Source of the DNA: Mesostigma viride
Taxonomy: Eukaryota; Streptophyta; Mesostigmatophyceae; Mesostigmatales; Mesostigmataceae
Direction: 5' to 3'
NCBI GenBank assembly: GCA_009746045.1
Contig: RPFO01000667.1
Span: 386,721 to 450,720 of the forward strand
DNA: 64,000 nt
The first letter of the stretch is position 1. Each line of letters starts with the position of its first letter. Position numbers and translations under genes: made by a program. Below the pieces are notes generated by a model that was not told the origin of the DNA, made no database searches, and saw nothing but the letters and a program-made list of their open reading frames with translations. Shown here one piece after another: positions 111-51,371 of this stretch.

Positions 111-3100
111 TTACGCCTGTGCCTTCATTTGGCCAACCCCATACACCTGCAACGTATACCGACTAAAGTCGTGCGGCTGCCACTGCGCAGGCCGCTCTCC
201 TTCCGGCGGCGGCGGTGCTTGCATGCACGACCTCACGGCGGACGCGACCGTGTTGCCATTCTTGATACTTGTGATCACCTTGCACACGTTGGTGTGGTTG
301 GTGTCCACCGTGCTGGCCATTCCGTTCAGGACGACCGTCTTGACACCGCGCAGCGAGAGCAGGGCGGCGGTCTCGTATGGCCCTTCCAGCGCGCGCATGC
401 GGGGGGACTGCGACAGAAAGCACAAAACAAAACAAGAAAGCGAACCAAGGCACACAGGCATACTTGAATGAATCAAATAATTAAAGCACGGGACCGCACA
501 GGGATTACAGTCATTACCGCGGTAAGTTGCGTTTCTTAAGGTTGCGTTACCGCGTTAAGTCGCGACGCCGAAGTTTGGGCAGCGACCGCAACTTCAGCAT
601 CGGTGCCATCGCAACTTAACGCGATAATGACTCAATTTGTAGGTGTCAGGCCACTTTTGGCCGCGCAGGAGGCCACTTTTTGCAGCTTTTTGCCAAGTCC
701 GGACCCGCCATGTGGCTTTACGGGGCAAAGTACGCAAGCTTGAAGCTCCCCTGGCGCGCAGATGGACTTCCCCGCCTGAAAAGCGCGAATCTGCGCGAAT
801 GCAACCTTGCGAGTCCAATTGTAAACTGATTTGCAGCCTGCGGACTGCGGTACATCAGTAGCATGCAGGGCGCGGCACATCACGGCACTTTTGTGGTATC
901 AGTAATTCTGACTGACTGGCACTCACGCAACGACTGTGTGGCGGCTGGCTGGCTGCACCCGGCGGGGCTCGGGCACCTGTATTGCGGCAGCCGGCCCGCC
1001 TTTCTCACAAAAATCATGAAAAGATTCCTGGTATGGAAAAACAGGAAAATGGACTTTGGGTGGCTTTGATAATGCTGCAGCAGGATCGGGCTTGACGAGA
1101 GCTGTAGAATGCCGTATAGTAGTCCGTGAGAGGAGGGGGTGGGATGCTAGCCTAATTCTACCGCTAAGTTGCGTTACCGCGTTAAGTTGCGACGCCGAAT
1201 TTTAGGCGTCGATCGCAACCTAACGCGGTAATGACTGTACGTAATTGATTTTCACGTAGACTGAGTCATGTGAGCATGAGTGGGATAGAAACGGGATGGG
1301 GTGGATCGATATAGCTATCTAATTTCTAGCTACAGGGTTGAAATGGGATGGGGTGGATCGATCGAGCTATCTAACTTCTAGTTACAGGGTAGAAATGGGA
1401 TGGGGTGGATCGATCGAGCTATCTAACTTCTAGTTACAGGGTAGAAATGGGATGGGGTGGATCGATCGAGCTATCTAACTTCTAGTTACAGGGTTGCGGG
1501 CACTGCGGCCAGATTCAATTTGGTTACCAAATTTGGAAACTATGGTTATCGCACATGCATAAGACAGACATATCTTGTCAGGCCGAAAAGCTCTCACAGT
1601 TCTTTGCCAAACTGATCCTCGAGGGCCACCCATTCCATGTCTTGGCCTAGTAGTTGGTATCAAGAAGTACCAACATATAAACAGCGTTATCAGGTTTCTG
1701 AAAGTCATCTATGGTCGCGCTAAGAAAGCCTACAGCTTCTATAGTCAATTTTGTCAAGGTCCCTGCATCGCCTTCCCACTATCGACATGAAACCCCCACG
1801 CCTTCCAATGTGCCAACTAACAAATTAGTGACAGTTGCCGGCATTAGGCCCCTCAGCTTTCGATTGTCAGCACAGACACCTCCCCCAAGGCGACTACCAT
1901 CATGGTCAAAATCACTTTGCGACAAAAACGTTGCGCATCGACCTCGCGGACTTCTATTACTTTTCATTATTTTGGCTCACAAACTTGTGTATTCACTGTA
2001 CTTTTGTACTAGACGTTGTACTTATTTCATTGGATTTTACTAAAACAGTGCCGCGTCGCAATTACCATGTTGATATAGTTTATCCTCGCAAATCTAAACT
2101 TTTAACTTGTTTCGAGGTTGCAAAATAATTTGTCGCAAAGTACCATAGTCAAGCATAAACTTAACCCTGACATTCGCCCCCCCTCACCTTGCGGTCGTCG
2201 GCACAGAACCCTCCCCATCGAATATGACTAATTGATACTAATACTAGTTTATTACTAAATAATTCAAACCCCCATATTAGACCCGCGCCTCACCTTACGG
2301 TTGTCGGCAAACGCCTGAGTGCGCAGGCTCTCCTCATTGCCCACCCGATCCACCACCAACGCCAGCGCCAAGTCCTTTAAATGGAGGGGGACCACGGCTC
2401 TTGGGGGAAGGTACGCCAGCAGCCGGCCCAGACCGAAATAGACAAAGGTCTTGGCGGACGCCAGCAGCCGCGTGCAGTCGCCCTCGCCCGGGATGGACTT
2501 GGCTCCGTCGAGACCCGTCCATTGTCCGATGGGCTCCTCCAGGAACTCCTGTTGCAGGGGTTATAGGGTTGCAAGTATCAGGGCAGGGTTTGGCACGCCG
2601 ATCGGCACGAGAGTATGTGCGTGCAAGGGTGCAAGGGGGGGGAGGGGCAAGGGTTAGCACACGGGTCTGGTTGGAGGAAAGGCTGATGCGAGGGTAACTA
2701 GAAAGGGTTCACTAATGCAGGAATTCGCCCAAGGGGTGGCTGGTGTAAGTGTTGGGACAGGGGTGTGGCATAAGGGGTGGTTGGTGCAAGTAATCTCGCA
2801 AAGGCATTGGCGCGCTGATTAGCCCAAATGAATATCATAATTTATGTTGATCGGCGCTTTATGTATTATTCTTTGTTGCTGCGGGGATGGATTAAAGGTG
2901 TGACGAATGAGCAAGAGGGTGGGTTGGCCCGATTGACACAAGAGACCGGCCAGCGGCTCCAGCAAGCACTTGCGAAGCCGTCGTCTGCATGCTATAGGCA
3001 GCTACCACCAACAAAATTGACGATAAATCATGTTGGCATATTAACGATGAGCTTTTTCCGGCCTCGCATCCCACATAGCTCTGTAAACATCCTGCTGAGC

Positions 3101-50200: not shown

Positions 50201-51371
50201 CAGACAAAGTTCGATTTAATATATAGCGTTCAGCTTAATCTTGCAGGAACTACCTTTGGACACATCAGGGATCACGTGCCTCTGCGTGAAATCAGTGTGA
50301 CGCGTACACCACCCGGAAACATACCAGAGAGACACACAGAAAAGTTGACGTGGGAAAAAGGAAAAAAAAAAAAAAAAAACCAAAAAAAAAAACCATGGTA
50401 ACCAGAGCGATACTTTCTAACCAAAAAGGCAAAGCAAAGGCAACAAACCAGAAACGACAAACATAACAAAAAACGATGCGAGCATACAAACGATGATGGT
50501 AATCAAGCAAGTACTTGTATAAAGTTATTATAATTTACAGTTAGTCAACTAAATTACTATAGGATAATTCCTGGGAGAGACAAAATCTGAAGCCTCACAT
50601 TCATAGAATCACACTAACTGGCATCCCATCGAGGGACCAGGGACCCAGATCCCTTACCATGCGATAGAGCTCTTCGCCCATGGCTCTTTCCTGCTCGACA
50701 CTTGGCAGCACGCAATGCCTGGAGGCGGGCAGCAACGGGGTCGGCAATTCATGGTGGGGCCACAGCACCAGCAGAGCATATGAAAAGTGCTGTACAGGAC
50801 CAAGTACATGTAGCATACATATACCTGCAGCGTATATGGGACTCGGACAAAGATTCTTGTTTCAGCAACACCGACTGGCAATGGTGACGCTATGGTATGG
50901 CGACAGGCTTCCCAAGAGGAAGAGCTTGGGCAGCTGGTGGCTATCGGAGGAAACGGGCACGTACCCTACCTTAATTCCTATTTACGTAGTAGTATTGACT
51001 CTAACCCCTTCAGCGTTACCTGCGCGACTAGGGGAACCAGATGTCACTTACCGTCGTTCCGTGTAAGGGACTACCTCGAGATTCGTGACGTATATGTAAG
51101 TCCCGAAGGAGCAAGCGACGGCTGTCATGATCCCAATTCGTCGCCAATCTCGCTGTGGCCCCTGCTTTCTGAAATGCACGTACCCATCTGTGAAATAGGC
51201 ACGGCGGAGCCCAAATCTACTTGCGGGCAAGGGCAAGATTCTACTAACTGCGGTCACACTACCCACTGGATAACGGGCAGCGGCGGCGCAAGAAACGGCC
51301 GACGGGGCCTCTGTGCCCAACACCCGGGAAACATGCCTCAACGCATGGCGCAAACGAGAAATGCGAGACAT
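41299..51371 (-). CDS. OMA1: OMA1 mitochondrial M48 metallopeptidase, complete eight-exon gene, 354 residues
   Basis: Inner-membrane zinc protease of the stress response; in animals and yeast it cleaves targets such as OPA1 and works in membrane-protein quality control. Exons: 51371-51052, 50718-50658, 49551-49357, 47763-47695, 45931-45777, 44664-44580, 43754-43690, 41413-41299, all phase-compatible. Order of features: Arg-rich, acid-poor presequence; one membrane span near residues 78-97; [19 protein letters not shown] as in plant OMA1; [19 protein letters not shown]; zinc motif HEVGH at 214-218 split between exons 4 and 5; third-ligand box ELEAD at 269-273; [15 protein letters not shown]. 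Yeast Oma1 is about 345 residues. The exon 7 donor (GTACGT) and the short last exon are inferred from the fit to THPxxxxRI. Introns carry several arrays and duplicated exon ends. Confidence 0.92.
41637..42600. repeat. CA/CACG-rich microsatellite of about 960 bp
   Basis: Runs of (CA)n, (CACG)n and an 8-base ACACACGC unit in OMA1 intron 7. Repeat phase leaves all frames open on both strands, giving several 360-440-residue spurious ORFs of HTHTRTHA or VCVCACVR type. Alternating purine-pyrimidine content makes Z-DNA likely. Confidence 0.97.
42730..42935. repeat. Dispersed element related to 1232-1560
   Basis: Shares GACTGTGTCACGTAAGC, GATGGGATGGGGTGGAT, TTACAGGGTTGCGGGC and a final GGCATGCAT with the segment at 1232-1560. 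The CTGCGTCACGTG core also occurs at 17857 and 58217. Probably an old DNA transposon family. OMA1 intron 7. Confidence 0.55.
43854..44465. repeat. 36-bp minisatellite, 17 units
   Basis: Unit AACAATGCTAACAGACAGCT plus ATGACCAGCAAACAGT with a few variants. As 36 is divisible by three, the plus strand encodes [12 protein letters not shown] repeats and the minus strand [12 protein letters not shown] repeats, neither interrupted. The array sits in OMA1 intron 6, so both ORFs are taken as incidental. Confidence 0.95.
44742..44795. repeat. (AAT)n microsatellite
   Basis: About 15 AAT units in OMA1 intron 5. Confidence 0.95.
46008..46550 (-). repeat. Copies of the OMA1 exon 5 acceptor end grading into a tandem array
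   Basis: The real exon start reads GCGTGGCCCACCTGCGGCCA at 45921-45940. Copies: GCGGCCCATTTCTGGCAGCG near 46021, GTGGCCCACCTGCGGCCATA near 46152, then GCATGGCTCACCTACATATA near 46231. The last form repeats about six times to 46540 with TTAATTAAT spacers and ACTCCCAACGGAG, shared with MITE family B. OMA1 intron 4. Confidence 0.65.
47604..47625 (-). repeat. Copy of the OMA1 exon 4 donor end
   Basis: TCTCACCTCGTGCGCTACCA equals the real TCTCACCTCGTGCGCCACCA at 47690 except for one base, and keeps the GTGAGA donor. It lies 86 bases further into the intron. Confidence 0.8.
48134..48188 (-). repeat. Cryptic exon-like copy of the OMA1 exon 3 end
   Basis: GCCCCCCGGCACCACGACGC matches the exon 3 end at 49360-49380 (GCCCCCCGGCAGCACAAACG). 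Bounded by AG and GT, it could be spliced as a 55-base exon encoding [13 protein letters not shown], but that would shift the frame and break the GGKVVVF join. Judged a decoy. Confidence 0.55.
48372..49292. repeat. 23-bp minisatellite, about 40 units
   Basis: Units AGATGGGGAAGGTGAGATGT plus AGC with variants (AACAG, GGCAG). OMA1 intron 3, adjoining the telomere-type repeat. Confidence 0.97.
49309..49346 (-). repeat. Interstitial telomere-type repeat, five TTTAGGG units
   Basis: Five exact CCCTAAA units plus CCC on the plus strand. On the OMA1 strand it begins 10 bases after the exon 3 donor. TTTAGGG is the plant-type telomere repeat also found in many green algae, and differs from the TTTTAGGG of Chlamydomonas reinhardtii. 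Confidence 0.9.

Follow-up and report, generated by a model that had tools for sequence, protein, structure and literature searches.

The stretch of Mesostigma viride DNA analysed here, called the window below, comprises 64,000 nucleotides (contig RPFO01000667.1 of assembly GCA_009746045.1, positions 386,721 to 450,720), belongs to a 7.6-Mb contig of a 440-Mb genome, and carries an Mpv17-family gene, OMA1 and, as its main gene, CFAP46. The introns of these genes contain diverged copies of the borders of their own exons, and this work describes those junction copies and their probable origin. A purpose-written gene finder, trained on the window itself and yielding predicted exon calls, placed CFAP46 on the minus strand in 23 exons running from 31461 to 147. 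Exons 1-6 lie at 31461-29945, 29609-29316, 28007-27243, 26444-26348, 25600-25476 and 24553-24356; exons 7-12 at 23143-22850, 21841-19736, 19250-18954, 17540-17316, 16202-15974 and 14763-14392; exons 13-18 at 13532-13342, 11525-11433, 10302-10186, 9259-9132, 8381-7771 and 7141-6981; and exons 19-23 at 6424-6071, 5194-4863, 3514-3379, 2548-2294 and 407-147, with the gene possibly extending past the window. Exon 1 matches the Pfam family TPR_CFAP46_N (1.6e-23), exon 8 matches a solved CFAP46 (7.5e-11), and the joined exons form a single open frame of 3096 codons with no stops. The end of exon 13 was set by hand at 13342, as the finder had continued to 13210, into a repeat made from the terminal part of this exon; the 3096 codons were counted with 13210 as the end, and the 66-bp unit of the repeat is frame-keeping. 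No second haplotype was available for comparing copy number, CFAP46 exon 8 having a single match in the genome.

For the main scoring, 50-mers spanning each junction were compared with the adjoining intron and a score of at least 30 was taken as positive; exon-internal segments, and the same 50-mers set against the sequence of other genes or loci, served as controls. In CFAP46, 12 of 22 donors and 4 of 22 acceptors had a copy in the adjoining intron, so that 14 of the 22 introns carried one, compared with 0 of 118 exon-internal segments. This agrees with the first-pass annotation, which had reported copies by eye in at least 12 of the 22 introns and had proposed shuffled introns and non-adjacent exons as controls. 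Exon-internal positives numbered 1 of 505 over all genes pooled, and when junction 50-mers were paired with the sequence of other genes or loci, a score of 30 was reached in 2 of 1497 pairings and in 1 of 1691; among the genes and loci compared, junction copies adjoin their source rather than lying elsewhere. With exon-only 50-mers, 10 of 22 CFAP46 donors scored above all 100 dinucleotide shuffles of the intron, 10 of 22 above all 21 other introns, and 9 of 22 above both, while 3 of 22 acceptors exceeded all shuffles and 3 of 22 all other introns. The excess over each of these controls confirms that copies of exon ends are present in the introns. CFAP46, OMA1 and the Mpv17-family gene had been picked for showing the effect, and the dynein figures given below are alone free of that choice.

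On the donor side of CFAP46 (all copies on the minus strand), single copies were found of the exon 2 end in intron 2 (29115-29149, 80% over 35 nt), the exon 3 end and donor in intron 3 (27118-27169, 85% over 52 nt), the exon 14 donor region in intron 14 (11361-11394), the exon 18 end and donor in intron 18 (6845-6914), and the exon 21 end and donor in intron 21 (3263-3320). Other introns hold several: two copies of the exon 5 end and donor region in intron 5 (25262-25405, as 25405-25315 and 25302-25262) with a weaker one at 25214-25175; three of the exon 6 end and donor in intron 6 (23724-24051, including 23997-24051 and 23873-23926); two of the exon 7 donor region in intron 7 (22606-22729); three of the exon 10 end and donor in intron 10 (17093-17257); two of the exon 15 end and donor in intron 15 (9897-10087); and two of the exon 22 end and donor in intron 22 (1848-2203, as 2203-2165 and 1872-1848). 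At exon 13, a 66-bp array runs across the donor and is accompanied by one more diverged copy (13021-13361). On the acceptor side, a 102-bp array across the exon 9 acceptor (19226-19495) supplies two upstream acceptor copies at 96% (19327-19348 and 19429-19450), and three copies of the exon 15 start and acceptor lie in intron 14 (10393-10633). The other two of the four acceptor positives are short and close to the threshold, namely the exon 3 acceptor in intron 2 (28075-28090, 16 nt exact) and the exon 21 acceptor in intron 20 (3544-3561, 18 nt). A catalogue built with other scoring named the identical 12 introns on the donor side, holding 22 copies in all, and placed acceptor copies in introns 8, 14, 16 and 20, so that the two weakest acceptor positives vary with the scoring used. 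All the CFAP46 places singled out by eye, at exons 5, 6, 9, 10 and 13 and on both sides of exon 15, proved correct, the exon 5 place corresponding to 25339-25405.

The two smaller genes gave fewer copies. In the Mpv17-family gene, on the plus strand, exon 4 (34899-35020) has junction copies on both sides: at the acceptor a 104-bp array (34494-34944), and past the donor a copy at 35208-35242. Downstream of this exon, at 35908-36027, there is a match to PF04117. Copies had been claimed for exons 3 and 4 alike, and the claim stood for exon 4 on both sides; exon 3 (33565-33697) was not positive, and the copy of its donor was not confirmed (score 22, below 30). In OMA1, on the minus strand, 1 of 4 donors and 1 of 4 acceptors were positive, supporting the copies reported there: the end and donor of exon 47763-47695 recur at 47605-47625, and the start and acceptor of exon 45931-45777 at 46148-46171. 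A separate feature of OMA1 is an intron with 5.6 copies of ACCCTAA, presumably the plant-type telomere repeat, at 49308-49346, about 10 bases past the donor of exon 49551-49357; a 0.9-kb array of 23-bp units follows it.

Outside the window, a domain search for dynein heavy-chain loci gave 50 matches, the best 14 of which were used, two pairs overlapping, and three further dynein stretches were added since several exon matches lay close together. In these genes, on other contigs, 8 of 41 donors and 2 of 49 acceptors were positive compared with 1 of 385 exon-internal segments (p = 3e-8 for donors and p = 0.035 for acceptors), so the suggestion that the pattern is not confined to the window was upheld. 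Earlier scoring with exon-only 50-mers gave 7/40 donors, 2/45 acceptors and 0/332 exon-internal segments in the dyneins, and 9/22 donors and 2/22 acceptors in CFAP46. Four Mpv17 relatives (L001, L002, L003 and L006) were tested, L004 and L007 being left out where the finder had placed the gene on the opposite strand; they yielded one acceptor copy (L001, score 28) and no clear donor copy, and apart from scores of 29 in L002, solely between repeats, nothing else reached 28. The sparseness of copies in these relatives speaks against a very high genome-wide rate. Gene-finder calls over the flanking 200 kb plus the window gave donors 16/131, acceptors 7/135 and exon-internal segments 12/483 and 11/498; this sample was not relied on, several top matches lying in repetitive coding frames, and by eye the translations of much of the flanking 200 kb resemble retroelements.

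The clearest single case is a dynein intron on the reverse strand of stretch L045. The exon ends ...CTGGAGGACAACCAG at 1069, with donor GTGGGT, and 13 bases past the exon end begins an array at 1082-1530 of 12.5 copies of a 36-bp unit with 90% matches. The unit reads GGGGAGGACAACCAG|GTGGGCAGGGGCATGCACATT, in which 13 nt match the exon end, and most units have an intact donor; the array holds ten additional CAG|GTGGG sites and one CAG|GTCGGC. These sites lie at distances of 28 + 36k bases, and using any of them would therefore shift the frame. If the first donor is taken as the splice site and the following exon is appended there, the protein aligns at the junction without a gap to a solved dynein alpha chain. 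In a second case, an intron of L043 contains a single copy of the donor and what by eye are three copies of the acceptor, and joining its outermost sites again gives a gapless alignment at the junction with a solved dynein. The best matches of the L043 and L045 fragments are the solved axonemal dyneins 8glv_Fm and 7kzm_A, which are Chlamydomonas proteins, in keeping with a green-algal genome. Because both alignments are gapless, the outermost sites are ancestral in these two introns; they are probably still the ones used today, the copies being skipped, judging from the sequence. The same stretch of L045 contains further arrays on the reverse strand, at 2093-2378 and 3697-3817 (one of 76-bp units, one of AGT triplets). 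A 10-bp array in CFAP46 intron 9 (18348-18734, AGAGGGCAGG) presumably resembles the classical minisatellite core, and the G-rich donors of the L045 array look similar to it.

Orientation and arrangement bear on how the copies arose. Comparing the CFAP46 exons with their own introns by blastn on both strands gave 22 matches, all 22 in direct orientation, and 18 of the 22 reach, in the exon, to 9 nt or less from the junction. Three arrays in the window cross a junction outright (13165-13361, 19226-19495 and 34494-34944). Tandem duplication across splice junctions, the process proposed at first sight, accords with both observations, and its repetition over time with the 12.5-unit L045 array and with changes relative to the exon that, by eye, the first two copies in intron 6 have in common. 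Break repair with templated insertions, which are of the polymerase-theta type, might instead have pasted patches of flanking sequence into the introns, and the patchy homology and unrelated filler between copies would suit it. We consider this very improbable, given zero inverted copies among 22 matches, the tandem arrays across or beside junctions and the shared changes in successive intron 6 copies. Introners and other transposons were rejected, as identical sequence at many unrelated introns was not found among the introns examined; a junction sequence recurs in its own intron and almost nowhere else among them, in line with the original view that ordinary transposons do not explain the copies. 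The remaining concern was an artefact of assembly or of wrong exon calls. The exons do come from a home-made gene finder, and some dynein ends (e.g. L044 4664) may be a few bases off; on the other hand, the copies are diverged, 3096 codons read without a stop, and two dynein junctions are confirmed by solved proteins, leaving an artefact hardly credible. Misassembly of the window in particular is unlikely because the copies are diverged and the contig spans 7.6 Mb.

The copies themselves look like dead sequence, neither alternative exons nor maintained decoys. The exon part of the 22 CFAP46 donor copies shares 82% of its bases with the exon, differing at codon positions 1, 2 and 3 by 16.1%, 14.4% and 23.0%, and over the aligned intron positions +6 to +24 identity is 73%, a pattern that fits a copy decaying freely, an exon changing mainly at silent sites, and intron parts decaying on both sides. 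Duplicated alternative exons were rejected on these codon-position values, which lack the constraint expected of coding sequence. Junction-to-copy distances showed no frame preference (9/5/7 by remainder modulo 3, p = 0.56). The claim that copies near the true border are better preserved and distant ones more decayed failed, identity being unrelated to distance from the border across 21 copies (Spearman rho 0.16, p 0.48). The first-pass annotation was right, however, that decoy splice sites are left behind: the GT is retained in 15 of 21 donor copies, and in 6 of those 15 the nine-base donor is identical to the real one and scores equally. Copies with such an unchanged donor occur in introns 3, 6, 10, 14, 21 and 22. 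Since these six score as high as the real donor, splice-site strength alone does not decide which site is used. One could argue that the copies are functional, as decoy or backup donors or as alternative exons under selection, from the 15 of 21 retained GTs, from the 13 of 15 GT copies that score above the 10th percentile of CFAP46 donors, and from the 10 further CAG|GTGGG sites in L045. We think this quite improbable: codon positions 1 and 2 have diverged at 16% and 14%, frame is not preferred, GT retention is about what 80% identity would predict, and copy 2 of intron 6 has, by eye, an in-frame stop.

A further feature is that donors are copied about three times as often as acceptors. Pooling all genes, 22 of 69 donors and 8 of 77 acceptors were positive (p = 0.0018), and exon-only 50-mers gave the same direction (Mantel-Haenszel p = 0.005). 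Duplications confined to the intron were similar at its two ends (4/22 for the first 50 nt and 3/22 for the last 50 nt); a mutational bias toward donors may exist but does not show in these counts. This imbalance, the neutrality of the copies and the 6 of 15 GT copies equal to the real donor go beyond what had been noticed at first.

Taken together, we give a probability of about 0.7 to the explanation that local tandem duplication in direct orientation, common in these introns, sometimes spans a junction. A duplicated unit that straddled a junction would leave an extra exon end and splice site inside the intron, provided that the outermost site stayed in use, and the conserved exon would act as a fixed reference that keeps old duplications visible. 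The surplus of donors would then reflect a splicing filter in which the first donor wins. A duplicated donor would leave the protein unchanged if the upstream site were used, and a duplicated acceptor if the downstream site were used; a spliceosome that took sites in 5'-to-3' order would tolerate duplicated donors and punish duplicated acceptors. Repeat arrays occupy 25% of the intron sequence of CFAP46, compared with 1% of its exons. Among 798 intron 50-mers, 174 recur farther downstream (19 of 560, or 3.4%, outside arrays).

Several results weigh against this explanation. The intron part beyond +20 was detectably duplicated in just 4 of 11 first copies (introns 7, 13, 14 and 18; intron 6 was left out of the test for a gap above 200 nt), with intron 21 borderline (p = 0.055), whereas simulated tandem duplication at 0.144 leads one to expect about 95%. 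Past the copied donor, similarity in successive 25-nt blocks was found in 12, 2, 5, 1, 6 and 3 of 22 copies, and the intron 5 copy, 87% identical over 67 nt, has an intron part without homology. Exon ends that have been degraded in silico by about 0.15 substitutions per site, a divergence matching that of the copies, are still detected at 10.1%, three times the 3.4% of interiors outside arrays. Windows with copies are slightly more frequent in the first 100 nt of introns (25/88), fall to 12-22% at 100-700 nt and rise again beyond 700 nt. The codon-position difference in the copies is modest (p = 0.035), GT-bearing copies score lower on average than genuine donors (Wilcoxon p = 0.008), the excess of donors over acceptors in the dynein genes alone reaches p = 0.039, and acceptor arrays with intact sites exist (CFAP46 exon 9 and Mpv17).

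The missing intron homology means that young tandem duplication was rejected as the origin of every copy. Older events, at 0.25-0.30 substitutions per site per lineage and seen through the detection filter, predict values of 51% to 28%, while 0.20 was rejected (p = 0.003); the L045 array repeats the whole unit together with its intron part, as do 4 of the 11 first copies, and the others fit only if old. Later insertions may contribute, an example being the AT-rich array that separates the donor of intron 6 from its first copy. The same observations can be read as a junction-directed process, in which donors themselves provoke duplication, through splicing- or transcription-linked DNA damage or through G-rich donors that resemble minisatellite cores, and copies are centred on the junction beyond general intron turnover. 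In its favour are the low share of first copies with homology beyond +20 (4 of 11), the surplus of donors, and the positive exon ends outside arrays (8 of 21, compared with 19 of 560 interiors), where degrading by 0.10 leaves detection at 15.0% and degrading by 0.15 leaves it at 10.1%. A different scoring was positive for 10 of 22 donors, and with milder degrading (by 0.12) for 134 of 440, compared with 22 of 231 interior windows outside arrays. With arrays counted, however, interiors reached 101 of 345, like the degraded donors; at 0.20 and 0.25 of extra divergence detection fell to 4.3% and 1.8%, about the interior rate (0.9% at 0.30), and intron-only duplications were alike at both intron ends. 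We regard a junction-directed process as unlikely. If the events are at least 0.20 old, as the missing intron homology suggests, junctions are not special, and we prefer this older-event reading because the aligned parts overstate identity, only the better-kept copies being found. Were the events no older than the aligned parts look, about 0.15, junctions would be about threefold over-represented, which we hold to be the less likely reading.

Under general tandem duplication filtered by splicing, a site-ordering rule may lie behind the donor surplus, and because intact acceptor arrays occur (exon 9, Mpv17) such a rule is not absolute. A bolder proposal is that in this lineage 5' splice sites seed serial tandem duplications, with introns growing outward from their donors and the spliceosome keeping to a strict first-donor rule; this is speculative and, as a whole, doubtful. 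Classical competition assays found a proximity preference in splice-site choice, the opposite of a first-donor rule. If the proposal were true, there would be genes with rows of up to a dozen similar donors, and the genome would be a very large natural experiment on 5' splice-site choice in which exon borders serve as a clock of intron turnover.

Intronic minisatellites are direct repeats with units of tens to about a hundred bp, and the junction copies are like them in unit length and direct repetition; unlike them, the unit is anchored on a splice junction and holds exon sequence, and many copies are too diverged or too few for array calling. Hellsten et al. (2011) and Gao and Lynch (2009) reportedly worked on intron gain by tandem genomic duplication. 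A review of this process describes it as an accepted mechanism of intron gain (PMC3443670), similar to the present case in that a local direct duplication includes splice signals and splicing decides which copy stays exonic. It differs in that a duplicated exonic AGGT creates a new intron, whereas here standing introns are lengthened repeatedly at their borders: no new intron at a duplicated AGGT inside an exon was found, the copies lie in introns past a standing donor, and in two dynein introns protein alignment sets the exon end at the first copy. In Drosophila, according to another paper, novel introns arose by tandem duplication of coding sequence with one copy intronized (PMC2891723); there too a copy of an exonic segment becomes intronic, though at a limited set of novel intron positions, in contrast to serial copies at standing junctions with a donor bias. 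The claim of novelty made in the first-pass annotation therefore needs qualifying, a closely related mechanism being in print (PMC3443670). For the pattern itself, a literature search, limited and so weak evidence, turned up no description; the portions seen of the snow-alga genome paper (PMC11228838) do not mention it.

What would surprise a specialist here is the excess of donor copies, together with the series of matched donors. Small duplications are erased in freely evolving introns, which makes intron lengthening without transposons hard to see, and a conserved exon end lets old duplications be seen, counted and roughly dated. Rows of matched donors make the choice between position and strength in splice-site selection testable in a natural genome, and the donor/acceptor imbalance offers a handle on how splicing filters such mutations.

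Three further features of the window lie apart from these genes. Two related fragments on opposite strands, at 37932-38165 (plus) and 59811-59998 (minus) (DDLTTRIGMAWAQLHDHRRWWSNP...LTYGAETWTLTQ), resemble what we take to be pieces of retroelement reverse transcriptase. A 1-kb CA-rich array of 8- and 16-bp units at 41582-42632 has several frames open on both strands. Finally, a long exon-like frame on the minus strand at 61481-62217 (TVNPNCVFLNYVPDEGANCVTPYVVDVAINLTL...) has a high coding score and lies within an open frame without a Pfam match.

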